Positions 34,809 to 54,700 of a stretch of DNA of 64,000 nt are shown here, one piece after another. This DNA comes from a bacterium (GTDB taxonomy: Bacteria > Acidobacteriota > Thermoanaerobaculia > Multivoradales > JAHEKO01): NCBI GenBank assembly GCA_024224155.1, contig JAAENP010000364.1, positions 1 through 64,000 on the forward strand. Reading direction: 5' to 3'. Each line of letters begins with the position of its first letter. Position 1 is the first letter of the stretch. The position numbers and the translations under genes were made by a program. Below the pieces are notes generated by a model. That model saw only the letters and a list, made by a program, of their open reading frames with translations, did not search any database and was not told where the DNA came from.

Positions 34809-35204
34809 ATGACAGAGCAACCAGCAGACATCACACTCTATGCCGCAATCGAACCCACCGGGGATTACGAGATCTTCGAGATCAAGCTGTTCTCCGACTA
34901 CGCGGGGAGCCAGCCAACCAAGGGCGACATCCAGGTTCCCATGGGAGGGGCGGTTCTTCGTTTCAAGAAGGTAGCAGCTCAGGTAGTGTGGCCGTGGCGG
35001 TTTCACGATCTCACCATCCACCCGATGGGGCCGGAAACCGACCGGCTCGATCTCAAGTGGAGAGTGAGCCCCGCTGACGTTGTTGTGAAGCACGAAGAGG
35101 CGACGGTGAAGCGCACCTATAGCTACACCCTCTCGGTCGAGTTCGCCGGAAGTTACTTCTATCTCGATCCCCAGATGGTGGATGTCGGCGGCGGTCAGAA
35201 GTAG
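34809..35204 (+). CDS. Hypothetical protein, 131 residues
   Basis: A strong ribosome binding site (AGGAGG) precedes the ATG. The protein is soluble, beta-rich and without a signal peptide (ITLYAAIEPTGDYEIFEIKL, then YSYTLSVEFAG). No family recognised. Its last 71 codons including the stop are repeated at 43433-43645 at roughly 90 percent identity. It follows the kinase by 68 bases and could belong to the same unit. Confidence 0.6.
   Translation: MTEQPADITLYAAIEPTGDYEIFEIKLFSDYAGSQPTKGDIQVPMGGAVLRFKKVAAQVVWPWRFHDLTIHPMGPETDRLDLKWRVSPADVVVKHEEATVKRTYSYTLSVEFAGSYFYLDPQMVDVGGGQK
34992..35204. repeat. 213 bp partial-gene duplication, left copy
   Basis: The second half of the 131-residue gene, from CCGTGG to the stop codon, is present again at 43433-43645 in the same orientation and with the same length. 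Substitutions are scattered and mostly silent, so both copies evolved under or came from coding constraint. Confidence 0.88.
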
Positions 35205-35278
35205 GCGACGGACACCCGGCGCCTGACTGAACAAGCGGGGGCGGGACTCTGCCGAAACGAGTGTCCGCCTCCGCCGGG

Positions 35279-35335
35279 AAAAGCGGTGACAGAGTACTCA
35301 TCCCGGCATTGACCTCCGAAGCCGAGAGCAAAGAC
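35279..35335 (+). repeat. Interspersed repeat element, copy 1 (divergent)
   Basis: Begins AAAAGCGGTGACAG and keeps TACTCAT and the CCGAAGCCGAGAGCAAAGACC segment of the family. Its stem is only partly formed. It lies in the 328 bp gap between the 131-residue gene and the GMC oxidoreductase, 75 bases after the former. The rest of that gap shows nothing I can support. Confidence 0.7.
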
Positions 35336-35532
35336 CCCCCTCTATGGGGCAGCGCTTTCGCCGGCGTGGCGACTTCTCGTTCGAGGTGCCTCGAATTTGG
35401 GTAGAGCGACGACTGAGTCGCAACCGAGACATCTGAGCCCACGGCCCTACCCTCACAAGTGGTGCGGCGCTCGGGAAGCCAGCCATAGGCTGGACTCCAG
35501 ACGGCCAACCCTGCCCGATGGAGGACAAGCGC

Positions 35533-36987
35533 ATGGCAATCACACGACGGGAGTTCCTCGCCGGCGCGGGCGCACTGGCGGCATCGACCCTTGCCTGCCC
35601 TCGGCATCCGGAGCCCTGGGACGTCTGCGTCATCGGGTCCGGATTCGCCGGCATGCACCTGGCGCTCCGCACTGCCGACGCGGGGCTCAACACCATCATC
35701 GTGGAAGCGGGCCCGAGACCCGAGACGGACTCCGGAGAGGATCTCCGCGGTGATCTGTTCGCCTATCGCAACAGCGGGGAGGTGCAGTACCCGCTCAACT
35801 CGACGCGCGCCATCGGGGTCGGAGGAACCAGCAGGCTCTGGGGCGGCGTTTCGACGAGACTCTGGCCCAGCGACTTTCGGATGCGGACGAACCACGGGTT
35901 GTGGACCAACTGGCCGATCAGCTACGAAGACCTCGTCCCCTACTACTGCGAGGCCGAACAGCTCCTGAGCGTGCGGGGCGGTGACGTGGTGCCGGCGGCC
36001 GAGCCCCCGCGGGAGTGCCCCTACCCCGTGCCCCTCCGCCAGCCCCCCGGCAACCCAGACGTACGGGTCGAAGGTGCGCCTCGCCCGTTCTTTCGAGTGC
36101 CCCGGTCCAGAAGAAGCGGGCGCCCGGTCCGGCTGGCGCAGGACGAACTCTCCAGATTCGAGGCCCACCCTCTGGGTACCCTGCTACCGGGTCTCCAGGT
36201 CACGCGCATCGTCACCCAGGACGGCGCCACCGTGGACCACCTCGAGGCACGGCCCATCACGGGCGGAGATGTGCGGAAGATCTCCGCACGCTACTTCGTG
36301 GTGGCCGCCGGAGCCATCGAAAGCGCGAGACTCCTCCTACTGTCGCGCTCGCCGGACGGGGAAGGTCTCGGCAACCGGCACGGTCAGGTCGGGCGCTACT
36401 TCGCGGTCCACCCGAGCCTTCAGATTCGCCTCGTCCCGTCCAGGCCCATCAATGTCACGCATGGCAGCTACAGGACCTATGCCCTCAACGATCTCTACCG
36501 CAAGCAGGGACTCAACGCCGCACACTACCAATTGGACGTCTTGGACTCCGACAGGCTCCGGTGGCGCGTGCAGCCGGAGATCGAGCCCCAGGCCGAAAAC
36601 CGCGTGGCGCTCGGCGACAGCGCCACGGACTCGAGGGGCCTGCCCCTGCCGGATCTCAGACTTACCTATTCCGACCGCGACCAGCGCACGTTCCAGCGCT
36701 GCAGAGCCTTCGTGGCCGAGACCAGAGCGGACCTGCGCGCTGTCGAAGGCAGCGGACGCGAGAAGTTCCCCTGGTGGCGGTCACATACGTCCGGAACCTG
36801 TCGCATGGGGTCCGACCCGACATCCGGTGTGGTAGACGCCAACAACCTCGTCTTCGGCACGCGTAACCTCTTTGTCTCAGGCGGCGCCACCTTCCCGAAT
36901 GCCGGCACGGCCAATCCCGTGAGTACCATCGTTGCCCTCACCCTCCGTCTCGGGGATCACATCCGCGGCCTGGCCGCGCGCGGCTAG
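35533..36987 (+). CDS. GMC-family FAD oxidoreductase with Tat signal
   Basis: The protein has 484 residues from the ATG at 35533, chosen because GGAGG lies nine bases upstream. A twin-arginine signal (TRREFLAGAGALAA) indicates export of the folded flavoprotein. The FAD-binding motif reads VIGSGFAGMHLALRTADAG. The C-terminal GMC domain includes HTSGTCRMG, NLFVSGGATFPNAGTANP and the final VALTLRLGDHI, with the catalytic His expected at HTSGTC. Family enzymes oxidise alcohols or sugars. No cytochrome partner or gluconate-dehydrogenase subunit 3 gene is adjacent, so the electron acceptor is unknown. Confidence 0.88.
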   Translation: MAITRREFLAGAGALAASTLACPRHPEPWDVCVIGSGFAGMHLALRTADAGLNTIIVEAGPRPETDSGEDLRGDLFAYRNSGEVQYPLNSTRAIGVGGTSRLWGGVSTRLWPSDFRMRTNHGLWTNWPISYEDLVPYYCEAEQLLSVRGGDVVPAAEPPRECPYPVPLRQPPGNPDVRVEGAPRPFFRVPRSRRSGRPVRLAQDELSRFEAHPLGTLLPGLQVTRIVTQDGATVDHLEARPITGGDVRKISARYFVVAAGAIESARLLLLSRSPDGEGLGNRHGQVGRYFAVHPSLQIRLVPSRPINVTHGSYRTYALNDLYRKQGLNAAHYQLDVLDSDRLRWRVQPEIEPQAENRVALGDSATDSRGLPLPDLRLTYSDRDQRTFQRCRAFVAETRADLRAVEGSGREKFPWWRSHTSGTCRMGSDPTSGVVDANNLVFGTRNLFVSGGATFPNAGTANPVSTIVALTLRLGDHIRGLAARG

Positions 36988-37123
36988 CCCGCCCTTCAGC
37001 CGGGACCGCCGAGCCGTAGCGGTAGACGTCCGCTTCGGAGGCTCTAACGGCCCTCAACTCGGCACAACTCTTGATCCTGCTGACGGATTCGTATCGTGGT
37101 TTCACACTGAGGAGCACGCCACT

Positions 37124-37645
37124 TCAAGGGCTAGCAAGCGCTGACTCAGTGAGTAGGTACACATGGCTGTCGCGACCGCCATCGTCGGGCCTCGATCCCA
37201 CCCGCACACCGCCGACCTTTTCCACGGCCCGCTGCGAGCGCAGGTTCTGTGGAGCGGCAAGCCAGACAACGCCACTCACAAACCGAAACGCATGCCGCAA
37301 CATGAGGCGCGTCAGCTCCCCGTTATAGATTCCTCCCCAGTGCGACCGAGCCAGGAATATCCAACCGATTTCCACTTCATCTCGGTCCTCGTCGTAGTCA
37401 TGGAAGCGCGCAGACCCAATTACGCGCTGAGCTTTGGCATCGATAACGATCAGCGCTCCGCCTGACGCCAGGGACTCACGGAAGAACGCCCGGAAGCTCG
37501 TTTCTTCGTGGCGGTTCTTGACCGGGTGCTGCTCCCAGATCAGTGGGTCGGCGGCGACCGCATAGAGGCTGTCGTAGTCCTTGGCGCGAAGCGGTCTGAG
37601 TTCGACGAGGTCGCCTTTCAGAGTCGGTTGATAGTCGAATGGCAC
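37124..37645 (-). CDS. GNAT-family N-acetyltransferase
   Basis: The protein has 173 residues. It starts LKGDLVELRPLRAKDYDSLY, the usual beginning of RimJ/RimL-like GNAT enzymes, and includes RVIGSARFHDYD, the beta4 strand VEIGWIFLARSHWGGIYNGE and the conserved NLRSQRAVEKVG segment of the acetyl-CoA-binding region. The substrate is unknown. No operon partner. Confidence 0.9.
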   Translation of the reverse strand: MPFDYQPTLKGDLVELRPLRAKDYDSLYAVAADPLIWEQHPVKNRHEETSFRAFFRESLASGGALIVIDAKAQRVIGSARFHDYDEDRDEVEIGWIFLARSHWGGIYNGELTRLMLRHAFRFVSGVVWLAAPQNLRSQRAVEKVGGVRVGSRPDDGGRDSHVYLLTESALASP

Positions 37646-37836
37646 TCTCCGGCTCCTTCCGCCGGCTCCACTCGGCGCTGAGGTATCTCAGCTCGGCGCA
37701 GTACGAGGCGTGGACGGTAAGTCATCCCTTGGTTCTGTCAGCATTCTACCGCGAAGAGCCTGACAAGACATGCTCGGAGCGCGCGAACTCTGGCAGGAGC
37801 CGGGCCGTTCGAATGGCATGAGCCTTCCAACTTCGC

Positions 37837-37865
37837 TTGACCGGAGTCGAGCCGGATTACACAAT
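37837..37865 (+). promoter_or_regulatory. Possible promoter of vapBC giving a leaderless transcript
   Basis: TTGACC (37837-37842) and CACAAT (37860-37865) are 17 bases apart. Transcription would start at or next to the ATG of the antitoxin at 37872, which lacks a Shine-Dalgarno sequence. This is a sequence match only. Confidence 0.4.
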
Positions 37866-37871
37866 ATACAC

Positions 37872-38102
37872 ATGAAACGTACAAATCTTGTGCTTCCCGA
37901 GGACGTTCTCGAAGAGACCCTGCGCCTGAGCGGCGAGCGCACCTACTCGAAAGCAGTCACCAGGGCGCTCGAGGATTTCGTGCGGCGGGCGAAAGCCAGG
38001 AAAATCCTCGAGCTGCGCGGCTCCGGGCTGTGGCGAGGCGAGCTGGCGGAGATGAGGGGCGACCAGCCGAAAGCCAAACGGGCCGAACGTGCTTCTTCTT
38101 GA
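37872..38102 (+). CDS. vapB: VapB-type antitoxin
   Basis: The protein has 76 residues. The N-terminus (MKRTNLVLPEDVLEETLRLS) and the following YSKAVTRALEDFVRR fit a VapB-type antitoxin with ribbon-helix-helix-like DNA-binding character. The C-terminal Arg/Lys-rich tail would occupy the toxin active site. The stop overlaps the toxin start by 14 bases. The frame is open further upstream, but the ATG at 37872 gives the family N-terminus. Confidence 0.85.
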   Translation: MKRTNLVLPEDVLEETLRLSGERTYSKAVTRALEDFVRRAKARKILELRGSGLWRGELAEMRGDQPKAKRAERASS

Positions 38103-38478
38103 CACCTCGATCTGGGTCGAGGTGTTCCGCAAGCGACGGCCCCTGGATCTCGAAGCTCACCTCGACTTCGAGGAAGTCGTGACCTGCCTGCCGGTCATCC
38201 AGGAAGTGCTCCAGGGCTTCGACGACCAGCGAGCCTTCCGATTGGCCCGGGAAGCCATGCTGTCGCTGCCCATGGTCGAATCGTCTCTCGAGGCGAGCAT
38301 CTTTGAAGAAGCCGTCGGGCTCTATCGCTCGGCGAGACGGCTCGGGCTCACGGTGCGCTCCGGCACGGACTGCCTGATTGCCGCGTGCGCCCTGCGGAAC
38401 TCGCTGGCTGTCGTCCACCGGGACCGGGACTTCGACGCCCTGGCCCAGGTCGCGCCACTCGAGACCGTGTCTCTCTAG
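38089..38478 (+). CDS. vapC: VapC-type PIN-domain ribonuclease toxin
   Basis: The protein has 129 residues. PIN-domain acidic residues are visible: Asp in LLLDTSIWVE, Glu in VIQEVLQG, Asp in SGTDCLIAA and the final HRDRDFDAL. These coordinate Mg2+ for RNA cleavage. The GTG start lies inside the antitoxin gene, the common coupling for vapBC. Its stop overlaps the 3' end of the convergent SGNH-like gene by four bases. Confidence 0.9.
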   Translation: MLLLDTSIWVEVFRKRRPLDLEAHLDFEEVVTCLPVIQEVLQGFDDQRAFRLAREAMLSLPMVESSLEASIFEEAVGLYRSARRLGLTVRSGTDCLIAACALRNSLAVVHRDRDFDALAQVAPLETVSL

Positions 38479-39599
38479 GGCCGGTCTCGGCCCGCGCCAG
38501 ACTTCCCGCTCGCGAGCACCCGCCGTCTGATCTCGCGCGCCACGATCCGATTGAAGTGTTCCGTGGGGTGGGAGCTCTCGGGGTCGATGTAGCGAGCGGG
38601 AGTCGCCGAGCCCCACTCCCGAGAACTCCGAGAACCGCGGGAGCCGCGATCCCCCGCCACGACGTCCTTCGACCAGATGTAGGGCACGCCGTTCCCCTCG
38701 AGCCAGCGGCGCAGAAACTCCTCTCGCCAATCGCTGCCACCGAACAAGGGGTTGTCCGACGGGCGCTCGCCGTGAAACACGAGAAAGACGAATCCGAGGT
38801 CGCGTCGCCTCAGCTCTCCGAGAGTCGCTGACAGAATCCCCTCGCTGACCTCGATCTTGCGCTGGCGCTGCCAAGCCTCTCGGCGAAGCGTCCGAGAGAG
38901 CCACGCCGGCAACAGGTCGCTGAAGACGGCTCTTCGATAGAGATAAGACACCGCGCGCGGCGGATGATCCGCGACGAACGCCTCGGCACTCTCATAGATC
39001 GGCGTCGGCTCCAACTCCAATGCGCCGTCGACGACCTCAAAGCGAGGCTTCTGGCCAATGCGAATCGAAAGCGCGCTGCGGGCGAGATCGTAGGGAAAGA
39101 GGCTGAAGACCACGAAGGGATCATCGAAGAGCTCGACCGTGTTCCGGAGCAGAAGCAAGGACTGGTCGACTCCGTAGCCACCGACGCCGTAGTTGAGCAG
39201 GTAGTTCTCTTCGCTGAACTCACGATCCCGATTGAGGATGTCCTCGAAGCAGGCGACGTCCCCGGCGCACTCGGCGAACGAGTCGCCGTAAAGCAGAACC
39301 GGCCGGCGCCCCGCGAGTCGGGCCGAGTCCCGGTGACGCAAGTCCGCTCTCGAGAACTTCCCCACCCAGCCCAAAACCGGGTGCGGGCGCCGAGGCGGCT
39401 TGGACTCTCCATCCAGCAGCAGATGGAGCTTCCAATGGAGGTCCTCGGAGAAGTAGTCCGCATAAAGCGCCGGGTCCTTGAGTTTCCGAAACCGCTCGCC
39501 GTCGCTGAGGAGCGCGGCCCGATAGCCCAGCTCCGCGACGACCAGAGCGACGAGAACAGACGTTGCCAGCAGCAGAAGGCGGGCCGATCTGCCTTTCAT
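38475..39599 (-). CDS. Membrane-anchored SGNH-hydrolase-like protein
   Basis: The protein has 374 residues from the ATG at 39597-39599; the frame continues upstream without a plausible start. An N-terminal membrane anchor (ARLLLLATSVLVALVVAELG) precedes an SGNH/GDSL-type domain: block I LLYGDSFAE, block II-III NYGVGGYGVDQS and block V near DPESSHPTEHFN. Relatives with this architecture act on O-acyl groups of surface polysaccharides. That is family knowledge and no polysaccharide genes are nearby. Confidence 0.7.
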   Translation of the reverse strand: MKGRSARLLLLATSVLVALVVAELGYRAALLSDGERFRKLKDPALYADYFSEDLHWKLHLLLDGESKPPRRPHPVLGWVGKFSRADLRHRDSARLAGRRPVLLYGDSFAECAGDVACFEDILNRDREFSEENYLLNYGVGGYGVDQSLLLLRNTVELFDDPFVVFSLFPYDLARSALSIRIGQKPRFEVVDGALELEPTPIYESAEAFVADHPPRAVSYLYRRAVFSDLLPAWLSRTLRREAWQRQRKIEVSEGILSATLGELRRRDLGFVFLVFHGERPSDNPLFGGSDWREEFLRRWLEGNGVPYIWSKDVVAGDRGSRGSRSSREWGSATPARYIDPESSHPTEHFNRIVAREIRRRVLASGKSGAGRDRP

Positions 39600-39709
39600 C
39601 GCGCGGGAAGGCGCTTCCTTTCGGACCTGGGCCGAATCGGGGCCGGCATGCACGGCGGAGATTCTACCGGCCGACCCGTCGCGGGCCGATCTCAGCCGGA
39701 TTCCCTCTA

Positions 39710-40000
39710 CTATCGAGCCTTGCGTATCAGATAGGCACGGGTGCCCATGAAGACCGCGCTGACCAAGAAACAGCCGGCGGCAAGACCGGCCATCACGAGC
39801 TGGGCCTCGCTCATTTGCCCCCAGTACCTGAACATCAGGACAACGCAGCCCCCGAGCCATAAACTCGCCAGAAGAGACGCCAGACAAGCGGCTTTCAGAT
39901 TGTCCTGCTGCTCCAGGTCGCGAGTTCGCATCGACCAGATCGCGCCCGTGAGAAGGACCGCTCCTGCCGCAAGGTTCAAACCTAGTTCAAAGTTGATCAT
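39710..40000 (-). CDS. Small membrane protein, 96 residues
   Basis: Three hydrophobic segments are visible (LGLNLAAGAVLLTGAIW, LASLLASLWLGGCVVLM and LVMAGLAAGCFLVSAVFMG), with a basic C-terminal end (YLIRKAR). No family is recognised. It lies 110 bases upstream of the SGNH-like gene on the same strand. Confidence 0.6.
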   Translation of the reverse strand: MINFELGLNLAAGAVLLTGAIWSMRTRDLEQQDNLKAACLASLLASLWLGGCVVLMFRYWGQMSEAQLVMAGLAAGCFLVSAVFMGTRAYLIRKAR

Positions 40001-40156
40001 GCTCGAACCCGACCAGTGCTTCGGCTTGGCTTCGCTCTTTCACCCTGCACCTGAACCCACTGGAGCTCCATTGAGCCGCCTCTATCTATTTACATTGCCG
40101 CCGGATCACGAAACCTGACAAAAAGCACGACGCTCCACCCGTCCGCGTTTCCGGAA

Positions 40157-40172
40157 CCACCCGCTCGGGTGG
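40157..40172. terminator. Short perfect hairpin
   Basis: CCACCCG and CGGGTGG arms with almost no loop. It is GC-rich and has no T run. It lies 33 bases before repeat copy 2 in the 385 bp gap 40001-40385, which otherwise holds only that repeat. Confidence 0.35.
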
Positions 40173-40204
40173 GTCCGCACGCCGCCGCCGGCAAAGGCCC
40201 CGCC

Positions 40205-40326
40205 AAAGCGGTGACAGGATACTCATTCAGGTCTTGATTTCCGGAGCCGAGGAAAGAGACCGATTCGTCCGTGACGCTCCAGGTCTGGGGCTCTGAACGG
40301 TCCCAGGCGCATCCTCTTGCTGTTGC
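40205..40326 (+). repeat. Interspersed repeat element, copy 2
   Basis: Core AAAGCGGTGACAGGATACTCATT is followed by GGTCT-TGA-TTTCC-loop-GGAAA-G-AGACC, a bipartite stem, and CCGATTCGTCCGTG. Similarity to copy 3 continues for about 50 further bases (to 40326). It lies 60 bases upstream of the secreted protein at 40386. Confidence 0.8.
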
Positions 40327-40385
40327 CGTCACCGTCCCCGATCGTCGTGTACTATCTGACTCAAATTCGAACAGAGGAGGCTCCC

Positions 40386-41198
40386 ATGCACAGATCTGAC
40401 TCACTGAAACGCCTTGGCATAGCAATGGTGCTGAGCGCACTGGCCTTCCCCGGCCTCAGCCAAGCGCAAGACGCTTGGGGCACGGCTAAGATCGTCCTAC
40501 AAGCGAACGGGTTGCGCGCCAAAGACGTCGGCGGGAGCCTCTGCATCGCACTCGATCCTTCCGACCAGTTGATCAATGTAGACAACGTCACCATTGGTTG
40601 CACGGTGACCGCCTCTCGCAACGGACGCAAGGTGAAGGGAGCGTCTTTTGAGGTCAGCGTGTGGGCGGGTTCGGACGGAGAAGTCTGCGACAGCACTGAG
40701 TTGGTGGATGATGTCGTCTGGACTGACGTCTCCAAAACGAAGCGCCCCGGGACGGCGGAGTTCACGCCGCCAGGGGAGCTTATATTCGAAGAATTTGATT
40801 TTACCGACGATGATCCAGATTGGTTCCTAATCGAGATCGAGGGAAGGAAGAATAAGAAGGTAGGTAAGGTCACTGGGGAATGCACGATGCACGCTGGCCC
40901 GGACTGCGTCCAGGGACCAGGCGTTGTATGCCTCGAGGGGCCGAACGGGGACATCATGGCCGAGGTGCCAGGCTTCGAAGTCTTTCAGGCCGACAACGAC
41001 AGCGCTATCCTCTTTAAGGGCTCGACGGACGTGCTCCTCGACGTTATGGACGACTGCATAGAAGTTGGCGGTTTCTTCGTGGATGTAACCACGAGGGGCG
41101 GCCCCGCGCCCTTTACGCTCATGCTCACCGACATGGACACCGGCGACATGGTGACTCTGACCGAGCCGGGGACGAAGTTTCTAGGGAGCTGCCGCTAG
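40386..41198 (+). CDS. Secreted hypothetical protein, 270 residues
   Basis: The ATG at 40386 has GAGGAGG six bases upstream. The signal peptide (GIAMVLSALAFPGLSQAQ) is followed by an acidic, beta-rich protein with about eight cysteines (LCIAL, IGCTV, EVCDS, GECTM, DCVQ, DDCIEV), probably disulphide-linked. No family recognised. The base composition is less GC-rich than in neighbours (for example 40780-40870), which hints at later acquisition. It is flanked by repeat copies 2 and 3. Confidence 0.6.
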   Translation: MHRSDSLKRLGIAMVLSALAFPGLSQAQDAWGTAKIVLQANGLRAKDVGGSLCIALDPSDQLINVDNVTIGCTVTASRNGRKVKGASFEVSVWAGSDGEVCDSTELVDDVVWTDVSKTKRPGTAEFTPPGELIFEEFDFTDDDPDWFLIEIEGRKNKKVGKVTGECTMHAGPDCVQGPGVVCLEGPNGDIMAEVPGFEVFQADNDSAILFKGSTDVLLDVMDDCIEVGGFFVDVTTRGGPAPFTLMLTDMDTGDMVTLTEPGTKFLGSCR

Positions 41199-41410
41199 GA
41201 TAGTCCCCGCCAGGGACCGTTGTAGTCAACGAGCAGCATCGCCCCTTTTCCGGGTCCTGGGCTGGCGTGCCGCCCGGCTCCGACCGGCACGCGGATATCG
41301 CTCTCGATTTCGCGAAGCTGAGTCTTCCACCAAGCTATTGCATCGCGGACTAGGTCAAGGGCCGGCATGCCTTCCCATGGCGTTCGATCTGATGTGAGGC
41401 TTTCAAGCGA

Positions 41411-41532
41411 AAAGCGGTGACAGGATACTCATTCAGGTCTTGATTTCCGGAGCCGAGGGGAGAGGCCGATCCGTCCGGGCACGCCAGGTCTCGAGCTCTG
41501 AGCATTCCCAGGCGCGTTCTCTTGTCGTTGCG
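41411..41532 (+). repeat. Interspersed repeat element, copy 3
   Basis: Almost identical to copy 2 over the first 48 bases. The distal stem strand differs (GGGGAGAGGCC against GGAAAGAGACC) in a way that mostly keeps pairing through G-U pairs. It lies in the 383 bp gap 41199-41581 between convergent genes, which otherwise shows nothing I can support. Confidence 0.8.
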
Positions 41533-41581
41533 CTTCACTAGCGAATGCGCCCGCCGGCGGAATGAGTGTCCTTTCACCGTT

Positions 41582-43009
41582 TCACTCTCCACCACGCATC
41601 GGGCCTCGAACCGGCCAAACGGCGCTTTCAACCCACTTGACATGGGAGCCAATCGAAGCGACGTTGACGTTCGCTGTCCTCGCTTTGTCCGGGACCCAGG
41701 GGACGGTTTCCATCGTCCAGTAGCTTGACCGCAGAGGTCCCGCCCAGGGGTACTCCGAGTAGCAGTTGACCTCGGCATCGGCCGTTCCATTGCCCATGAT
41801 CTCGGGCGGGTCCTCACAGTCCTCGTTGAAAAGCGCTTTGAATTCTTCCGCAGTCGCGAGGCGCCAGTCTCCGGGTCGGGAGCCGTCCGTCAAGCCGCAG
41901 TCACCATCTCCCGGATAGCCCGTTGCGCCATCCCAGAAAGCCGCGGCGGCCTCGTTGGCACTCTGGTAAAGCATTCTCTCGAAGCAGTCCGCATCCTCGA
42001 GCCAGATCAGCCCCGTAGCCGTGTCCGTCACAGTGCCGTTGCCGCAGCTTACGAATCTGTGGGTGTCGCTGTAACACGGTGGATCCGGATCGATGCCAAC
42101 CAACGGTCCTCTGAAGGTCGTGGTTCCGGTGTCGCGATGGATCGTCAGCCAGGGGCCGGACTCCCATCGTTGAAAGCGGCCCCAGATCTCCAGCGTGTTG
42201 CTGATCTGTCCGTCGTACCGAATCACCATCCCGTAGGTGCCGTCGTCGTCCTCGGCCAGGAGAATCTCCGAGCTTTGGTTGGCGGACGGCTCGTCCGGGG
42301 CCAGTAACAGGCTCCCGATCGCTGGCCTGCCGACCACGTGAACGTCCGCTAGCGGCGTGGCGGTCCCAACTACGAGAGCCCCTTCCGTAACCAGTGAGAC
42401 CGTTGGGATAACCGGCGGCTCAAGGGCGAGCACCGATGGCCCCGCAGTCGAAGCCTCCGCTTCGACCGCGACTCTCGACGCCGCGGCGCTGGTCGCAGGA
42501 GGGGTAGCCCCAGAGAGAGGGCCCCCGCTCTCCGGCTCCGGAGCCCGATCAGGCGGACCATCGTGCTGTTCCAGGTAACGCTGCACCAATGCCAGAGCCT
42601 GCTCGAATTCCACCTCGCTCGGGCCCGATGCCACCTCGAACAAGCTCGGAGCCGACCACCCAGTGTTCGCGTTCTCGCCGGTAGCGCGGACAGTCCAGGC
42701 GTACTGTCCGCCCCGCTCCAGGCAGCGGGCGAGTGAGGGTGTCCAGCTAGAAACCGAACCCGCGAAGCTCTGCCGCAGCACTGGCTCTGCCTCCTCGCCC
42801 CCGTCGCCCAGCCGGTAGACGACCAGCTCGTACGAGCGAGCCCCGGCGACGGAACCCCAGCTGAAGGTCGGACACGTGTCGCCGATCATCGAGCCCGTCG
42901 GACTCCCCGGCGACACCGCCACGGGGTGTGGCGCGGAAGCTCCAGCCGCCTGTACCGAGACCAGTAGCAGGATCCCGAAGAAGACCCCATCCAGTGTCGT
43001 CCGTCTCAT
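41582..43009 (-). CDS. Secreted DUF1566-domain protein
   Basis: The protein has 475 residues with a signal peptide (GVFFGILLLVSVQAAGA). Residues 35-130 resemble a fibronectin/Ig-type module (PTFSWGSVAGARSYELVVYR, YAWTVRATGE). A Pro/Ala-rich linker follows. The C-terminal 150 residues match the DUF1566/Lcl type: RFVSCGNGTVTDTATGLIWL, DGSRPGDWRLATAEEFKALF and YWTMETVPW. These domains occur in secreted proteins of unknown binding function. Confidence 0.8.
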   Translation of the reverse strand: MRRTTLDGVFFGILLLVSVQAAGASAPHPVAVSPGSPTGSMIGDTCPTFSWGSVAGARSYELVVYRLGDGGEEAEPVLRQSFAGSVSSWTPSLARCLERGGQYAWTVRATGENANTGWSAPSLFEVASGPSEVEFEQALALVQRYLEQHDGPPDRAPEPESGGPLSGATPPATSAAASRVAVEAEASTAGPSVLALEPPVIPTVSLVTEGALVVGTATPLADVHVVGRPAIGSLLLAPDEPSANQSSEILLAEDDDGTYGMVIRYDGQISNTLEIWGRFQRWESGPWLTIHRDTGTTTFRGPLVGIDPDPPCYSDTHRFVSCGNGTVTDTATGLIWLEDADCFERMLYQSANEAAAAFWDGATGYPGDGDCGLTDGSRPGDWRLATAEEFKALFNEDCEDPPEIMGNGTADAEVNCYSEYPWAGPLRSSYWTMETVPWVPDKARTANVNVASIGSHVKWVESAVWPVRGPMRGGE

Positions 43010-43210
43010 GACTCCACCTCCTCAGTGCCCTTCGGCAGCTCGGCGGTCTGGAGGTGGGTCTCGGACCCGTGGCTTTGCGTCGCCGTCTTTCGGCGGCTTT
43101 GCCGTTTTCGGGGCTGGTTCCCCTTCTACACCCGCAGCATGCCGGACGCGCCACCCGGAGGGGCGGGCAGACGCTGTGGCCTCCCGCGAGGCTCGGCCCT
43201 TCGCGGGGGA

Positions 43211-43363
43211 TTGGACGGCCTCCGGTGGAAGGACGTCGACCTCGACGCCGGCATCCTGACTCTCGAGGACTCCAAGACCGCCTCCCAGCGCCGAGTGATC
43301 GGCCAGGCGGCGGTCGACCTCCTCCGCGAGGCCAAAGCCAAGTCAGCCCGCCGAGAAGATTGA
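43211..43363 (+). pseudogene. Tyrosine recombinase (integrase) remnant
   Basis: Fifty codons read LDGLRWKDVDLDAGILTLED and then SKTASQRRVIGQAAVDLLRE, matching the part of phage-type integrases just after the first catalytic Arg. The N-terminal domain and the catalytic HxxR and Tyr are missing, and upstream sequence is only weakly integrase-like in shifted frames. It ends five bases before repeat copy 4. It marks a past integration or excision. Confidence 0.65.
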
Positions 43364-43368
43364 GCCGC

Positions 43369-43440
43369 AAAGCGGTGACAGGATACTCATTACGGTTTCG
43401 ATCTCGGAAGCCGAGAGCAGAAACCGATTTGTCCGTGGCG
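43369..43440 (+). repeat. Interspersed repeat element, copy 4
   Basis: AAAGCGGTGACAGGATACTCATT is followed by the best-formed stem of the family: GGTTTC-GAT-CTCGG-AAG-CCGAG-AGCA-GAAACC. It then runs directly, through a shared CCGTG, into the duplicated gene fragment at 43433. Confidence 0.8.
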
Positions 43441-43645
43441 GTTTCACGACCTCACCATCCACCCGATGAGGCCGGAAACCGACCGGCTCGATCTCAAGTG
43501 GAGAGTGAGCCCCGGCGACGTTGTCGTGAAGCACGAAGAGGCGACAGTGAAGCGCACCTACAGCTACACCCTCTCGGTCGAGTTTCTTGGGGTCTACTAC
43601 TATCTCGACCCCCAGATGGTCGATGTCGGAGACGGCACCTTATAG
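43433..43645 (+). pseudogene. 3' fragment of the 131-residue gene (right copy of the 213 bp duplication)
   Basis: Seventy codons plus TAG read WRFHDLTIHPM and DLKWRVSPGDVVVKHEEATV, collinear with 34992-35204. The final residues differ (DVGDGTL against DVGGGQK). No start codon or 5' half is present. On the opposite strand it forms the false C-terminal end of the truncated lipoprotein gene. Confidence 0.85.
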
Positions 43646-43994: not shown

Positions 43995-44938
43995 CCGATT
44001 CGTCGCTGTGTCACCTGATCTACACAGCCTCTCTCATTGCCGATTGGCGGGGTCCCTGGCGGTGCCGGTGGCGTAGGTTCGTAGCTCGGAATCCCGGCCT
44101 CCCAACTGTCCTTGGGCTTCCGCGCCGCAGCACCGATCTGACGCGCGGTGAGACCTCCGATACATACACCTTGAGTGATTCCCTCAATAACGCCACCAGT
44201 CCTGGGATTCGTGTCCCACTTGCCACCAAGTCCAATACCTTCGTTCCAGTCTTTAGCCTCGTTCGGCAACGCAATTTGATTCGACTCTAGGATGTGCTTC
44301 GCCCAGGTGCCGCAGTTATTCGTACCGAGCTTGTACGTCCCGATGTCGCCACTCAGTGGCGATTTGTTGTTGATGTTGCGCGACGCAATGGCCACTCGAT
44401 ACAAGCGCTCCTGTACATCCTGCGTGACGCCCAAAGGCACAATCTGCGACTGAAGAGCCCCTCCCTCGAGTCCTTGGAAGGTCCTCTGGTCAAATTTGTC
44501 GCTGTAGCCAATGAACGAACCCATCGTGCAGACTGTCCCACCCAGGTCGTTGCTCGAGTCCTGAGCGCCGCCCACCTCTCGAACCTTCCACGGGTGAAAG
44601 GAGAACGTCTCGGCTTCAGGGTTGGGGTTACGGGGAGGCTCCTCTTGCTTTCCAAGGTCTCGGACCAACCTCCGTCACTTCCCCGGATCCTCGAGTCCCT
44701 GGCCGTCGAACGCGAGGAACACGTGGCCTACCTTGGGATAGCGTTCTCGTAACCAGTCCTTATTGAACTCCCGATACACCAGATAGACCTCTTTCCCCAT
44801 CGGGTCCACATTGTTGAAGGGGTCGCTTAGCCCGTACTGATAGAGGCTCGGTGCGTCCTGGTACTCCTTAGAATCAACTGAGATAAACCGCCCGATCTCG
44901 GGGTCGTAGTAGCGGTTCCGTAAGTACACCAAGCCGAT
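43991..44938 (-). pseudogene. Orphan Rhs C-terminal tip with papain-like toxin domain, one in-frame stop
   Basis: The frame begins inside the Rhs core (GLVYLRNRYYDPEIGRFISV, SLYQYGLSDPFNNVDPMG) and continues into a tip unlike that of the main Rhs protein. An in-frame TGA at 44675-44677 interrupts it; the same frame is otherwise open to 43991. The tip has VGHVFLAF about 260 bases before the stop's far side and NNCGTWAKHIL later. His before Cys in this order fits circularly permuted papain-fold enzymes (LRAT/NlpC-P60-like peptidases or acyltransferases). There is no N-terminal Rhs region, signal or start. It is a displaced, decayed toxin cassette. Confidence 0.7.
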
Positions 44939-45212: not shown

Positions 45213-45785
45213 AAAACCTCGCACCGAGTTCTGGACCGGCACCTCGTCACAGAAACGTGCGTAGCGCGCGTCCAAGATTTCCCGACCCGCTACTTCGGCG
45301 CGTTCGGTGGGATGAAGTTCCCCTTTGTCTAGAGCTGAGTACCACACATCGTCCAGAATGCGAATCACGTTGACGGTGAGCGTTTGCCCATCGTGCTCCA
45401 TCTGTGCCGTCAGGGCGGGAATCGAGCCTTCAAAGGCCTCTAAGTCCCACACGCGGTCGAGCTGGATTCGAGACCCAGCTTCAATCAACCGCAGTACCTC
45501 GGATAGGTCATCCGGCTCGTAGTCACCGCTTCGGTATTCATCGACCGAGAAAGGGGCGAAGAGCTTTCCGGGTCGCACCAGTGCGTTCCTCACCTGCGGC
45601 TCTAAGTTGTTCTCATTTCTCTTGACTAGAAACATCGGCTGCTGAAGCTCGATACACCGTCCGGCCAAGAACGGCACATCTGGATAGTCGCTGATGTCGA
45701 CCTGCTCAAACTTCAAGCAGCCTGCCCACACGAACAGCAGGCCGACGACTAAAGCTAGGCGACCGCTGTTAGTTCGACTCGTCAC
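44994..45785 (-). CDS. Lipoprotein, probable immunity protein of the Rhs toxin
   Basis: The protein has up to 263 residues. The GTG start at 45783-45785 overlaps the Rhs stop codon by four bases (GTGA). The lipoprotein signal ends at VWAGC (Cys23). The mature part (DISDYPDVPFLAGRCIELQQ, LDRVWDLEAF, QTLTVNVIRILDDVWYSALD) has no known family. A lipoprotein anchored in the periplasm suits neutralising a lipase-type toxin that attacks membranes, as in known Tle/Tli pairs. The C-terminal 70 residues (45212 and below) may be an artefact, because a protein-like frame runs on the opposite strand there. Confidence 0.65.
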   Translation of the reverse strand: MTSRTNSGRLALVVGLLFVWAGCLKFEQVDISDYPDVPFLAGRCIELQQPMFLVKRNENNLEPQVRNALVRPGKLFAPFSVDEYRSGDYEPDDLSEVLRLIEAGSRIQLDRVWDLEAFEGSIPALTAQMEHDGQTLTVNVIRILDDVWYSALDKGELHPTERAEVAGREILDARYARFCDEVPVQNSVRGFLLLDPNTLDGACGAFFGDLDVLAFDLDACGASGFVLFVEPGGQNLGGNSAGDRQHESGGDFGNTKVASFESA

Positions 45786-48700
45786 GGCGAGCTGGCGAGG
45801 CGATTGTACCAGTACCAAGGTGACGTCCACCTAGACAACGCGCCGCGAAGCGACCCGCGTACCCGATTCACCTCAGCACCGATGGGACCGGCCGCCGAGG
45901 TCGCTGCGCTATGCCGCCTATAGTCGTCTACCCCGTGCGTGTTCGGGAAGTCGAAGGGCCTCCCAAAGGACGAGTAGTGGACGGTCACGTTCGGATTGGC
46001 ATGGGCCAAATCGTTGACGAGCGGTGCGCCTGCACCCGCGCCCATCGGCACGATGTCTCGCGTGTTGATGTAGGCCGTCGTCGAACGCAGTCCTGACGGG
46101 AACGTATAAGAAGCTCCACCGATCGAGATGAAGTCGATCCTCGACCGCTCCGCTTCGCTCAGGTGCGACAGGCTTGAGGTCGAAATCGCTGCCCCCTGGC
46201 TGTGGCCCACAAGGGTCAGAGACTCGTTGGCACCTAGCTGTCCGAGGCGACCGCGAACTGTCTTCACCACCAAGCGTGTCGTCTCGTCTGGAAGGTTGAG
46301 CTTGTTCACAAACGTGGTCTGAAGAATGTCCTCAACCCCACTTCGCGTCGGGTTCCAGATCGGAGTGACGGACCGTCCAAGCATCTTGGCCGTCTCGTCA
46401 GCATAGAAGGTCGCCCTCTCGGAATCATTCAGGATGCCGTTTACAAACAGAGCAGAGTTAGCTTCCGTCCCGATCGTGTCCAAGACCCTCGCGCGTTTAG
46501 CGTTCGCGTCATCCCCAAATCGCCGAATCAACGACCCCGCGATCAACCCCTGGCAGTCCAGTTCAAGTGGATTCGCCTTACAGAATTCGGCATGCTCACG
46601 CATGGCTTGTACGCCTCGCTCGACGATCGGTCGGTACTTTGAACGACTCTCGAGCCCCAACGGATCGCTGGCATTGAACGGGCTATTGCCCGCGTACTGG
46701 TACAAGCTCGGCCCGTCCACGTACCCCATCGGGTCGGCGGTGATGAAGCGCCCGATCTCGGGGTCGTAGTAGCGGTTGCGGACGTAGACGAGACCGGTCT
46801 CCTCGTCCACCGGCCTGCCGTGGAAGCCGTGGTCGTTGCCCACGGTCGAGGTCGCGACTTCACCCGGCTTGGGCGTGTCGTAGAGGCGACGTTCGTCCGT
46901 GAAGATGCAGAGGATGTCCGGCGGGCAGCCGGCGAGGGACGAGGCCAGGTGGAAGTCGAGGGTGAGGGTCTCGGAGACGCCCTTGCCGGCCAGATCCATC
47001 GGACCGGTCGCGATCTCGAGCGTGTGGGTGCCGTTGCCGACCGAGTCCGAACCCAGGAGCCGGTAGCCGTTGGCCGCTAGGCTCCAGGACGTGGGCTGGC
47101 CGTCGAGGGTGATCGCCGCACCCGCGAGCGCCGGGTCCGGCGTCTCGGAGAGCTGGACTCGGAGCCCGCCGTCCTTGTAGTCCACGGTTACGAGCCGCGG
47201 ATCGGAGAGGTCCTCGACGACGCTGTCGGCGGCCGGCCAGGAGAAGGCCAGGACGTAGTCCGCGCTCGGCCGGTTGCCGAAGAGGTCGACCAGGGCCTCG
47301 GGTTCGATCACGAGCTCGAGGGCGTCACCCGAGGCGGGGACCGAGCCCAGATCCACCACTAGCCGCCTCTGGGCCTGCCGGCCGTCTTCGACCGGCTGGG
47401 TGACCGTGACCGGGAGGTTCATGGCCGCGGCCGTATCGGTCAGACGGAGGGCCTCGGCGGTGACAGCCTCTTCCAAGTCGTCCGGATCGACCGCTTCGGT
47501 CAGCTCGAGGACGAGGCTCGAGCCCTCGGTCCGCACCTGCTCGACCGCCGGCGGCGTGGCATCGGCGAAGATCGTCCGCTCACCGAACGGTGTGAACTCA
47601 TAGCGCTCGACCACTCTGCCGTCCGGGCCGGTCGAAGCCGCGAGGTTCCCGGTCGAGTCGTAGAGCGGCACGGTCTCGGTCTCGAGCGTGCCGTCGCCAT
47701 CGACGTCCACCGCCTGGTTGACGATCTCGTCGAGCCCCAGCCCGAAGGTGCGCACCGCCGACAGCTCCTCGGTCTCGATCGAGGTCGCCGGGTCGGTCTC
47801 CACCCGGTACTCCTCGATCGATTTCCAGCGGTGCCAGACCGTCTGGCTCCTCCGGACGCCGACTTCGCGCTCGACCCTGCGGTTGAGAGCGTCGTAGGTG
47901 TAGGTCGCCACGTCCTCGAGCGGCCCGCCCAGGAGATCTTCGCGGGCCACGCGCACCAGCCGGTTGCGGTAGTCGTAGAAGTAACGGCTCTTGCCCTTCT
48001 GGGTGAGATTGCCGTTCAGGTCGTAGGCGAGGGCCAAGCCGTTGATCGAGGTCGGGCGGTTGCGGTTCGACGGTGGCAGGCTCTCGGCCTCGCCGATCTC
48101 GTCCTCGACCGAGGTCTGGGCGATCAGGTTCTCGGCCTTGTCGAACTGGTACTGATATGCCTCGGCGGCATCGGCCGAGAAGCCCGGCGTCGAAGCGGAG
48201 TTCGGCAGAACCGAGCCCGCGGGATCGGGCAGCTTCGCCGCTTCGGTGACCCGCCCCGCGCCGTCGTAGCCCATCTGGAAGCCGCGATTGCCGAGATCGC
48301 CGCGGGTAGTGGCGGTCTTCAAATACCGCGGGCTCCAGGCGATCTGCTCTTCGAGAGCCGCGACCGGGTCGGGGCCCGCCGCCGCGCCCGGCAGGAAGCT
48401 CTGACCGGTCATGCGCTTGGCCGAGTCGAACGTCATCTCACCTGAGACTCCGTTGCCGAGGGCCTTGGTCTGGATGAGATCGGGACCGCGGTAGCCGTAG
48501 GAGGCGGCCTGGGCCACAGGATCCGGGCTCCCCGCCGTTCCGGTCGAGATCACCCGCGGCCGGTCGAGCGGGTCGAACGTCTGGGTTACCTCATGGCCCG
48601 AGGGATAGCCGATCTTGGTCGCCGAGCCGACCTTGTCGTGCTGGTACGAGACGGTCTTCGTCATGGCCAGCGGCCCGGTGCCGATCCTCGTGCCCTCCGA

Positions 48701-51700
48701 GGTCATCCGCGACAGCGAGTCGTAGGTGAAGGTCGTCGTCACGCTTCCCGAAACCGCCCGCGTGGTCCGGTAGAGGCCGTCGTAGTCGTAGGTCTCGGTG
48801 GTCACACCTTCGACAGCGCCTCCCGGGATGATCGACCGCGAGCTCATCCGATTGGCCGGGTCGAAGACCTGGCCGATCGTCGTGCCGTTGGCGTCGGCGA
48901 TCTGAATGACGTTCGAAGCCGGGTCGTAGGCCAGAACCTCGCTCGTCCCGTCCTGATAGGTCGTCGTTTCCTTACGGTCGAGCGCGTCGTAGGTGTAGGT
49001 GGTCCGGTTACCGTTAGCGTCTTTGTACTCCTCGAAGCGCGAACTCTTGTCGTACTTGTCGTCGCCCGAGATCCCGTCGGTGCGATCGGGCTTCGTCAAC
49101 CGGTGCAGCCCGTCGGAGGCGTACGTCGTCAGAAAGTCTTCCGGATCGCGCGAGCGGATCACGTTCGAGCGCGCGTCGTAGGAAGTGCGGGTCGTGTTGC
49201 CCAAGACGTCGGCCGAGGTCACCCGGCGGTTCAGAGCGTCGTAGGTCGCCGTGTAAGGGACCGTCACCTCGCCCGCGCCGTCGGCGGTCTTCTCAATCGA
49301 CTGGGTCAGACTCGCGTTGCCGTTCGCATCGAGCGTGTACGCCATCCGGTTGCCTGCCGGGTCGGTTGTCTCGATCAGCCGCTCGGCTTTGTCGTACCGG
49401 TAGCTCGTCGTCCGGCTCTCGTAGTCGGTCGTCGCGGTCACGTTCGAAGCCGGGTCGTAGACGGTCGTCGAGCTCAAGGGGCCCTCGGTCGCCGGGTCGC
49501 CGGCACCGAACAGGGTCTGGTTGAACCCGGTTCTTCGGTTCAGGAGGTCGTACACACCACCGCCTTCGGCCAGAAGCGTGTTCGCCGCGTCGTAGCTTTG
49601 GGACTCGGTCAGGTTGCCGTTGTTGTCGTACCTCGACACCGCGTAGTTGCCCACCGGGTCGGTCGTCCTCTTCGCCCGGCCGTAGCCGTCGTACGCGGTC
49701 GTCCAGGGGTGGGTCCGACCGTCGGTCACGGTCGTCCGCTCGCGGTCGGCGTTGAAGACGAAGGTGTCGGTCGAGGCCTCCGGCGAGCCGAAGCCGCGGG
49801 TCACGGTATCGACCAGGTTGCGCGGGTCGTAGGTGTACCTGGTGACATTGAGCTCGGGGTCGGTCACCGTCTCGAGATTGAAGTTGGCGTCGTAGGTGCG
49901 GGTCTCGAGCGTGGATTCGCCCAGACCGATCTCGCGCTCGGTAGTCTCCAGATGGTTGAGCACACCGTAGCTGTAGGTGTTCGTGGTGCTCGAAGCACCC
50001 GTCTCCCCGAACGGCAGGCGCTCCGTCTCGAGGTTGCCGTTCCGGTCGTAGCCGTAGACCGTTGTGTAGCCCAGCATCGGCGCGTCGGGACCGTCGTCAG
50101 AGCCGATCTCTGCCGCGGTCGACGACACCCGCCAATCGAGCTCGTTGTACTCGGTCGTGTGGCGCACGCCGCGCGGGTCGGTCACCTCGGTCACGTTGCC
50201 CCGTGCGTCGGTTTCGTAACGGGTGGTGAGCCCGAGACCTCCCGGGTCCTCCACTTTGCGGCTCAGGTAGCCGGTGGATGGTCCGCCGTCGAAGTAGGTG
50301 AACTCGGTGACGTTGTCGTTCGGATTGGTGGCCTTGGTGGGCTGCCCGAACTCGTTGTAGTCGATCTGGGTGACGCTCGACTCCGGACGGGAGATGACGC
50401 GCGCAAGCCCCTTGCTGTCGCGCGTGATCGAGGTCAGGGCCTGGCGCGGATCGGTGATCATCGACGGCTGGTTGGTCACCGAGTCGTACTCGATCGTTGT
50501 AACGAGCACGGAGCTCGAGCCGTTGGCGCCGCGTCCGTCCTCCGTCACCGTGATCCGCACCACATTGCCGTGCCTGCGCGGGTTCTCGCCTTCGTCGTAG
50601 GCGTACTCGGTGACGCGGCCGAGCGGCAGCTCCATCCTGGTGGCCAGCCCGTCGTCGTTGTACTCGTAGGAGGTCGTGGCGGTGATGGGGTCGGCCACGC
50701 TGGTCATCTGGCCGTCGTCGTTGTGGCGGTACACCCACGGGTTGCCGCGCCGGTCGGTCACCGTGGTGATCCGGCTCACGAAGTCGTACGAGACCGAGAG
50801 CCCGTGGCCGCCCCAGGTCTGGGACGTCACCTCGTCCGAGCGCCCGTCGTTGTCGGGGTCGGTGTAAGTGAGCGTCAGCCACTCAATGCCGCGCGCGTCG
50901 TCGTAGGAGGCGATGTTGTCGCGGGTGTTGAGCAGGGTCGCCAGATCGCCGCCGCCGACCGGCTCGTAGGCCGCCGTCTTCGTCAGCCGTCCCGACGGCC
51001 CGCCGGTGGAGACCTCCGGCGAGCGCACGTCGGTCAGCCGCCCGTCGTCGTCGTACTCGTAGAGAACCTCCCGCTCGTCGAAGTCTCTTAGCTTGGTGAG
51101 CCGGCCGTCGTCGTCGTACTCCAGGAAGTAGTCGCGGTCCAGGGTGTCGGTGACGCGGGTGAGCCGCGACGCCAGGTCGTAGCCGAAGGTCATCTCGTTG
51201 CCGGTGTCCTCGGCCTCCTTGGTGGAGTCGGCGAGGCTGACCAGGCGGCCGAAACGGTCGAACCGCGCCAGGTTGCGGCGCGCGTCGATCATCAGGAAGC
51301 CGTTGGCTGTCCGGCGCAGGACGGCGAAGCGGCCCGGCGGCGGCTCGAGCTCCTCGCTCTCCTCGTTCCTCTCGAACAGCTCGCGGCGGCCGCGGCCGTC
51401 GTAGTACTCGACGTCGCCGTTGGGTAGCTCGCGCAGGCGCTGCCGGTAGTTGAAATCGCAGCCCGGGCCGCAGGGGCCGGCGCCCACCGTCTGGGTGCGC
51501 TGGGTGCGGCGGAAGAGGAAGTCGAATCCGCGGCTCTTCACCGACATGTCCACCGCGCTCATCGCGCACTCGCCGGAGTGCAGCAGCGTGCCGGCCGCCA
51601 CGTCCCCGGTCCCCATCGACGGATTCTGCGTCGGTTCCTGGCGCACCGCCGGGCTCGTCTCCCAGCGCACACTGGCGAGCTTCAGCTCGGCCGAGTCGAG

Positions 51701-54700
51701 GCGGCTCTCGCTGTACATGCCTGACAGCAGCTCGCGCACACCGGCCGGGAAGGAGACCCGGACGGTGTCGCCGGAGAGGATCTGGACGGCGTCCTCGCTG
51801 ACCTCCTCCATCGCCTGGTCGCAGCGCGGGCAGAGGTTCTCGTCCTTCTCATCCTCGGTGCGCCCGTATTCGCGCGTCGCTCGGAGATCGGCGAGGACGG
51901 CGATCTCGTCGGACATGTAGAGCTGGTGGCCGGTGTCGGTGTTGGTGTCGGAGAGGCGGCGCAGGACGATGCCGTCGTCGCCGGTCAACGAGGTCGGCGG
52001 AAGGTTGGGGATGAGGTCAGGATCGCCGGCGCCGTCCATCGGCAGGCCGCCGGGGCCCAGCGCCTCGAGGTCGAGCTTGACCTCGTCGCCGGAGAAGCCG
52101 GGCAGCGAGGCCAGTACGTAGAAAGAGCCCTTCAGGTCGGGCGGCTCCTCGCCGCTCTCGCTCGGCCGGCCGTCGGGAGTGGTGGGCACGCCGAACGGCG
52201 CCAGGCGGTCGATGCGGCGTAGGCTGCCGTCCTCGTTGCGGGCCAGAGCCGTGAGCAGCGGCTTATCGAAGCTCACCGCGGTGAGGCCGCGGCTGTTGCC
52301 GCCGACGTAGACGATGCCGAGCTCGGGATCGACGACCATCGGCGATTTGGTGGTGCCCTCGAGGTCCACCGTCTCGAGGATGCGGTCGTCGGTGCCGTCG
52401 CCGTTGACGTCCACCAGCTCGCTCGAGAGCGGCGCGTTCATGTCCACGACGTAGAGCCCGCCGCCGTAGCCGGCGCCGAAGATGCGCCGGTTCGTCCGGT
52501 CGACGCCGATGTGGTTGACGGACCCGGGCACCCGGATCTGGGCCACCTGGAAGGGCGCGGCGCGGTTGTGCACGTCGTAGATCAGGATGCCGCCCCTCGC
52601 GTGGCCGATCACGAGGTAGTCGCTGCGCTCGTTCTCGTCCAGCATGCCGTCGTCGTTGAGGTCGAAGATGAAGTCCTGGAGGACCTCGAGGCCGACCACC
52701 TGCTGCGTGCCGTCGAGGGTGATGCAGCGGTTGGTGAGGTGCTGCATGGCGCCCGGCGACGACGGGAAGCTCTGCAGCATCTCCAGGCCCTTCTGGAAGA
52801 TGAGCGACGGGATGACCAGCGGGTTGGGGTTCTGCTGGTCCAGCAGCACGCCGACGTTGAGCACCAGCCCGAGCGAGTTGATCGGCTCGTCGCAGAGGTT
52901 GATGCCGGCGCCCTCGCCGGTGAAGAACCCGACGAGGTCGCTTTTGATCGGGTTGTCGTCCGGCTCGTTGTAGAAGGCGTTGACGTCCACCGCGGCGACG
53001 CCGGCAAGCGCGACCGCCACGTAGGCCACCGTGTTGCGGTTGATCAGGAGTTCGAGGCGGGTGCCGACGCGGACGGTCAGCGTGACCATGTAGTTGCCGA
53101 ACTCGTCGGCGTCCACCCGGTTCCAGCGGCCGCTCTCGAGATCCTTGAGAGTGACCGGCAGGCCGCCGGAGGCACCGCTCCCGGTGACCGTGACCTCGTA
53201 CTCCGTCACCCCCTCGGGCGGCGTGTCGGGGCTGATGGTGACGCCGCCGGGAGGCGCCTCGCCCAGACGCCACTCCTCGCGGTCGTCGTTGGAGAGGATC
53301 GCGGTGCGACGCGGGGTGCCGACGGGCAGGTTGGCGACGAAGCCGCCCGGGTAGTTGGAGAGGATCGTGTCGCCCTTGAACGCCGCGTAGCGCACGTCGA
53401 GGTCGTCGGGGTTGGCGGCGATGGCCTCGGGATCGAGGTCCAGCGGATCGAGAATCAACATCTGGCCCGGGCTGCGGTCGCCGCCGCCCACCATCAGCAC
53501 GCGGCCGTGCGGGTCCACAGCGACGCCGCGCACCGAGGCCGAGAAGACCAGCGGGAAGGTGATGTCGTTGGGGATCAGGTTCTTGATGTCCGTGGGATCA
53601 CTGGCGTCGAGGATCACCAGGCCCTGGGAGGCGCCGGCCACGAACAGCAGGCTCCCCAGCCGCGCCACGTCGCGGGCGTCGCCGAGCTCGTAGGTGTCGA
53701 GGACCTCGCTCTCCTCCACCTCGAAGCGGATCTCGAGCTCCTTGCCCCACTCGTTCTCGGCGCTGTCGGTGAGGTCCGACTCGATCTTCAGGATGTAGGT
53801 CTCGCCCGCCAGCCAGCCGGGGTTGGGCATGATGCGTACCGTCTCCCGGGTGCCCAGCGGATCGATCCTCGGGTCCACGTCGACGCCGTCGGCGGCGGTC
53901 ACCGTGATGCCGGTGAGCCCCTCGTTGAGCGCCTCGCTGAACTCGAGCAGTAGGGTCTCGTCGGTGGCCACCCGCGCCCCCAGGGCGAGCAGGTACCGTT
54001 GGCCGGCCTCGGCGGGGATCGACAGCGTGAACGAGCCGTCACTCATGGCGGTGGTGAACCGGTCCTCGTCGAGCTCGGGGTCGAGCGCCAGCACCCGGAC
54101 ACGCACCTCCGAGTGGACCGCGCCCGCGAGCCCCTCGATCTCCAGCGTGCCGCCGCCGAAGGTCGCCATGACGTCGGGAGTCACCAGCTCGTCCATGCCG
54201 GGCGTTACCTCGAGGACGATGAGGCGGACCGGCGAGCCACCCACCGGCAGCGGCGGCGTCTCGTCGGCGACGGTGGTGTCCACCGGCAGCTCCACGGTCT
54301 CGCCCGGCCCCGGCGGCGGGTCGAAGACGTCCTCGAACAGCTTGAAGCCGGTCGTCAGATCACGAGCCTCGACTTCGAACGGCTGCTGCAGCCGGCTCGG
54401 CATGACGATGCTGGAGACGTTGCCGCCCAGGATGCGACTCACCGCGGCGTCGATCGCGGTCGCCATGACCATCGACGAGCTGTAGTAGACGGCGTCGGGG
54501 ATGAGCGGCAGGGAGGCCCAGCCCAGCGGATCGTTGGCGAGCCAGAACTGGTAGTCGCGCTTGCCCACCGGGGAGTGCATACCGGGCAGGAGGTGACGTG
54601 GCAGATCCGGCGGCTCGGGTCCCGCCGCCTGCGGCCCCTGCGCCTCCGGGCCGAGCGCAGCGAGCCCGGACAGCGTCGAGGCGCGAAGACGCTCGAGGCT

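Follow-up and report, generated by a model that had tools for sequence, protein, structure and literature searches.

Repeat copies in the window

The window, the 64,000-nt stretch of an acidobacterial (Thermoanaerobaculia) contig analysed here, contains four copies of a short repeat, among other features. A 131-aa gene without a Pfam family (34809-35204) recurs 8.4 kb away as a truncated duplicate of 90% identity (43430-43635), which starts at a CCGTGGCG microhomology with repeat copy 4. Just 5' of copy 4 lies an ORF fragment, 43160-43363 (+), that by eye, from its translation only, resembles a truncated tyrosine recombinase (integrase). Two c-di-GMP-I riboswitch aptamers are present, at 43030-43112 (-) and 22151-22261 (+) (RF03167, RF01051); the gene downstream of the former (41582-43009, -) encodes an Lcl C-terminal domain, and the DNA across this aptamer is found again in many related genomes. 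The - strand at 45782-63043 is occupied by a 5,753-aa ORF that combines repeated Ig-like segments with an RHS core; a second, detached RHS tip (NRYYDPEIGRFIS) follows at 44675-44932 (-).

The repeat was described in an earlier note, made by reading the sequence, as four intergenic copies in one orientation. A 22-nt leader was matched four times on the + strand of the window, at 35280 (2 mismatches), 40205, 41411 and 43369, compared to 0 matches expected in shuffled sequence, and all four matches sit between ORFs. The repeat is therefore real and intergenic as described, and the last three starts are as given, whereas the first had been placed at 35279. A 67-nt register aligns copies 1-4, with ~50-70 nt common to all four, and copies 2 and 3 are 86% identical over 122 nt. 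The single orientation, however, is contradicted by a fifth, decayed end on the - strand at 41561-41579. Because this end opposes copy 3, copy 3 represents one end of a ~175-bp segment with inverted ends (Table 1).

Table 1. Putative terminal inverted repeats (TIRs) and adjoining parts in the window.
Feature	Position	Strand	Evidence or comment
TIR core, copy 1 (decayed; 2-3 mismatches)	35277..35304	+	motif matches; G011:C179 synteny border at 35277
TIR core, copy 2	40202..40229	+	motif matches; syntenic copy in other genus (G011:C179)
Copy 2 inner part (proposed stem region)	40230..40301	+	probable transposase 3'-end remnant, read backwards
TIR core, copy 3; left end of mini-element	41408..41435	+	motif matches
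Decayed TIR facing copy 3; right end of mini-element; core match 41561-41579	41559..41583	-	
Mini-element of ~175 bp, inward-facing TIRs at both ends	41408..41583	.	analogous ~400-bp deletion derivatives, same genus (L164)
TIR core, copy 4	43366..43393	+	motif matches
Copy 4 inner part; at CCGTGGCG meets truncated duplicate 43430-43635 of gene 34809-35204	43394..43440	+	

A conserved core and its distribution

Across ~160 copies from 16 related genomes, the only conserved part of the repeat is a ~27-nt core, GGAAAnnCGGTGACAGG(A/C)TACTCATTTC. Among 158 unique copies the conserved unit spans -7 to +20 around CGGTGACAGG(A/C)TACTCAT, and conservation stops at +20. The repeat had been divided in the earlier note into an unstructured leader and a structured stem, but it is the leader itself that constitutes the conserved unit, and the proposed stem begins outside it.

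Further copies were sought beyond the window, and the host genome was found to hold 11 motif copies with no more than 2 mismatches. The motif occurs 1-52 times per genome in 15 of the 18 members of the host's GTDB family, compared to 0 or 1 for a reversed-pattern control. Exact copies in named public records belong mainly to Thermoanaerobaculia and other Acidobacteriota metagenome-assembled genomes, plus Bryobacterales; two Bryobacterales genomes contain 10-11 copies each (control 0), and a transposase sought beside these Bryobacterales copies was not found. Exact matches outside Acidobacteriota (Ruminiclostridium, Prevotellaceae, Aegiribacteria) were judged to be chance, as by our own arithmetic about four are expected in 257 Gb. 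Neighbouring copies no more than 250 bp apart formed 44 pairs among the 129 listed copies; 36 of the 44 face inward, and the outer length of the inward pairs is mostly 60-80 bp.

A Y1 transposase gene accompanies the repeat

Thirty Y1_Tnp loci were fetched from related genomes and checked for the motif nearby. The motif (at most 3 mismatches) was found within a few hundred bp at only 4 of the 30 loci, 3 of them with the motif in the defining position. Three genes with intact starts and the motif just upstream form one subfamily (MAR[FL].R.VVP.VPHHVTQRGARRM) whose members are 67-81% identical, compared to 55% or less for the others. The motif is likewise upstream in relics and deletion derivatives from this subfamily, and the distance from core start to ATG is exactly 57 nt in all eight cases (L083, L091, L092, L163, L164 twice and L032 twice), which comprise intact genes, relics and deletion derivatives. 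At the other end of the gene an inverted TIR overlaps the stop codon (AAATGAGTA...) in L164, L160 and L162, and L091, L092 and the L164 derivatives likewise have an inverted TIR at their 3' end. Among the loci examined, the Y1 gene recurs beside the TIR in four genomes and no other gene recurs there.

The partner protein, of ~220 aa, matches Pfam Y1_Tnp (PF01797) at 38 bits, above the cut-off of 23, and Pfam found no HTH in it. Among NCBIfam models it matches REP_Tyr_transpos best (E 5e-20); its scores against this RAYT model (NF047646), 71.9 and 73.6 bits, are just below the curated cut-off of 80. NHVH/NHCH and YVLLNP motifs were present in the L083, L091 and L092 proteins.

Deletion derivatives and the state of the family in the host

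A genome of the same genus as the host (G002) contains two ~400-bp elements between inward TIRs (L164), in which the start of the transposase, a short stretch of its middle and its 60 final residues are retained. In the window, an nhmmer profile of transposase 3' ends gives a weak match to 40242-40291 (+) (E 0.77 over 160 kb), placed and oriented beside the TIR as expected. In pairwise shuffle tests, the inner part of copy 2 compared with transposase 3' ends gave 1/200 against G005 and 4/200 against G002_105, and was not significant against four other references. The stretch of copies 2-4 that had been drawn as a stem is thus probably remnant 3'-end DNA of a transposase gene.

The host assembly (96.6% complete) was searched for a partner gene, and none of its three Y1 genes has this TIR; the closest, at 49% identity, has no such TIR nearby. 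Because the assembly holds no matching transposase, the window copies look fossil, old copies whose active partner would be missing from the host genome. The block holding copy 2 is found in another genus too, 92-93% identical, and where copy 1 would lie in G011 there is only a truncated end, GGAAAGCGGTG.

N-terminal transposase relics in contigs C54 and C22 of the host were considered as the partner and rejected, since they belong to sibling families, the one in C54 with TIR GGGGACACAATACGTAAT. At that locus (L182, G000:C54), the sibling TIR GGGGACACAATACGTAAT flanks the N-terminal relic ~110-290 nt around its start, and an inverted copy lies downstream. Separately, positions 37809-39708 are 92.7% identical to G011:C179, from a different genus, compared to ~70% for same-genus G002, which suggests horizontal transfer of this VapBC-containing block.

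The repeat as the probable end of a TIRtron-type transposon

We consider it highly probable (about 0.88) that the four copies are TIRs of a small TIRtron-type transposon family, whose Y1/HUH transposase is a relative of the REP-associated transposases. The repeat family, the spacing of TIR and gene, the inward pairing and the deletion derivatives can be read directly from the sequences compared. A full element would consist of a TIR, 57 nt leading to the ATG, the ~220-aa transposase gene and a stop codon within an inverted TIR. Non-autonomous elements, 400, 175 or 60-80 bp long, would arise from it by internal deletion, and single TIRs by decay of the ends. The window copies would then be old non-autonomous remnants, the shared 3' part of which is probably left over from the transposase gene and not an RNA fold.

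By analogy with TnpA(REP) and TnpA(IS200) proteins, the transposase may bind the TIR as single-stranded DNA, with a short terminal stem (GAAA..TTTC) around a conserved 15-nt loop, and may cut and join it there. In ~160 copies, the pair -4/+18 covaries within genomes (0/1000 shuffles, stratified by genome; 37 pairs tested), and this is the only register that closes the short stem. Adjoining pairs trend alike without reaching significance, leaving one terminal pair that covaries significantly; because of this, and because 37 pairs were tested, the covariation is suggestive of a real terminal stem. Such a stem would be in keeping with an enzyme that recognises its ends as single strands. A clean empty-site pair for a TIR element was sought and none was found.

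TIRtrons were described by Di Nocera et al. (2013; PMC3733652) as Y1 transposases that have TIRs on both sides in place of REPs, in some cases at a constant distance. In the majority of the published cases, not in all, the TIRs share GGGGWSAS; they are also dispersed as singles, dimers and groups, and there is a distinct acidobacterial TIRYT group, in which Koribacter versatilis has one repeated TIR family (PMC3733652). The elements described here are alike in having a Y1/HUH tyrosine transposase gene, inverted TIRs at constant distance, a TIR overlapping the gene end, and TIRs dispersed as single copies, dimers and groups. Their core CGGTGACAG has a majority form, GGTGACAG, one mismatch from GGGGWSAS; 13 of the 158 copies carry G at the mismatch position and read GGGGACAG, an exact GGGGWSAS, and GGGGACAC is the form found in a sibling TIR of the host genome. 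They are unlike the published cases in that the TIR sequence is new, the partner is ~220 aa and the hosts are Thermoanaerobaculia and Bryobacterales metagenome-assembled genomes. With limited confidence we file the family as a new TIRtron family, assigned by element structure. Through it, the poorly studied TIRtron class would gain a well-defined TIR family whose transposase, deletion derivatives and decay products are all represented, in Acidobacteriota known mainly from metagenomes.

Alternative explanations

The earlier note had offered a structured RNA, a REP-like element or a recombination site. The REP-like option came close, as the repeat appears to be the terminal repeat of a REP-associated/IS200-like Y1 HUH transposase family; the RNA option fell, and a role at borders of exchange is hinted only. 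Canonical REPs or REPINs, in which GTAG- or GTGG-footed hairpins are moved by a RAYT, nonetheless seem improbable. The transposase is in the TnpA(REP) superfamily and carries WQ, NHVH and YxxxNP motifs, and the ~70-bp non-autonomous inward-facing doublets, accompanied by decaying singlets, are like REPINs (PMC3116915, PMC2817692, PMC8049555). However, column counts over the 158 copies show neither a GTAG/GTGG foot nor the long basal hairpin (7-20 bp by the criterion of PMC6006769), and the structure amounts to the putative short terminal stem around the 15-nt conserved loop. In addition, several transposase copies and relics occur per lineage here, whereas a RAYT is one vertically inherited gene. 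The partner's NHVH, W[EQ] and Y..LNP motifs and an SS motif after the core are those of TnpA(Y1) subclass 2.1 (PMC6006769; group 1 of Bertels), a membership judged by motifs only; the lack of an HTH by Pfam is a difference from that subclass.

Less probable still is a structured non-coding or cis-regulatory RNA in which the leader is conserved and the stem covaries. Every window copy is intergenic, copies 2, 3 and 4 permit a similar hairpin with one double change between them, and copy 4 folds far better than its shuffles (z -5.1). The stem was tested on the four window copies together with an independent fifth copy that occupies the syntenic position in a different genus (G011:C179; 93% identity over 98 nt). 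In this 5-row alignment the RNAalifold covariation term was 0.04, and for the stem as drawn all five measures, among them the percentage of paired positions, the double changes, the number of pair types and the covariation score, were each reached by 169-247 of 500 shuffles. Shifting the 3' side of the stem reduced pairing, which is expected because the structure came from the consensus. Copy 4 was the sole copy of the five to fold better than shuffles, the others giving z values of -1.4, +1.5, -0.1 and 0.0. The stems of copies 2, 3 and 4 had been read correctly in the earlier note, but the apparent compensatory changes are no more than chance gives; with no excess covariation, that claim hangs on one double change among three copies.

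The same note had named many copies with substitutions that do not respect the stem as a refutation, and copies that depart from it exist: the stem region is missing from the other members of the family, copy 1 breaks two outer pairs and the homologous G011:C179 copy breaks one. Elsewhere the copies form palindromic inward-facing pairs and flank a transposase gene at fixed spacing, and an Rfam search with the copies matched no family even at E up to 1. This removes a candidate structured RNA and illustrates that few copies with one double change can mimic covariation.

An unrelated DDE transposon or MITE as the source of these ends, the Y1 gene being a bystander, is scarcely credible. The ends are TIR-like, the mini-elements look MITE-like and in G000:C220 an IS110-type gene starts downstream of one copy, but the exact spacing to the Y1 ATG, the stop codon overlap and, among the loci examined, the recurrence of the Y1 gene alone in four genomes speak against it.

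TIRs at possible borders of exchanged DNA

Two Bryobacterales genomes, G059 and G060 (~91-96% identical), were compared at a small number of loci chosen for holding TIRs. Five loci were colinear across the TIR. At three others, the DNA from the inner side of the TIR was replaced or unmatched while the outer side was shared; at one locus, TIRs stood at both borders and the cargo was wholly different. All four breaks at TIRs (4/4) were on the inner side, in a few loci that had been selected for TIRs, and the third case is weaker, as the shared part stops 44 nt short of the TIR on its outer side, within a different abundant repeat. Synteny between the window and G011 ends at copy 1 (35277, just outside the core) and inside copy 2, on the inner side. 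TIRs might border exchangeable segments of ordinary genes, with the Y1/HUH transposase or TIR-TIR recombination swapping cargo at fixed sites, although we regard this as unlikely. The hint of inner-side breaks turns the question whether these HUH enzymes move cargo or delimit it into a testable one.

Two further observations concern the Bryobacterales genomes. At one site flanked by a gltD-like gene and an SBBP-like gene (L034:2994-5081 and L224:1501-2402), entirely different genes are found between the same two outward-shared TIRs in two genomes. A 51-bp repeat adjoining a TIR (L249:5383-5433) belongs to an abundant, partly palindromic family in G060, with dozens of matches at 89-100% identity.
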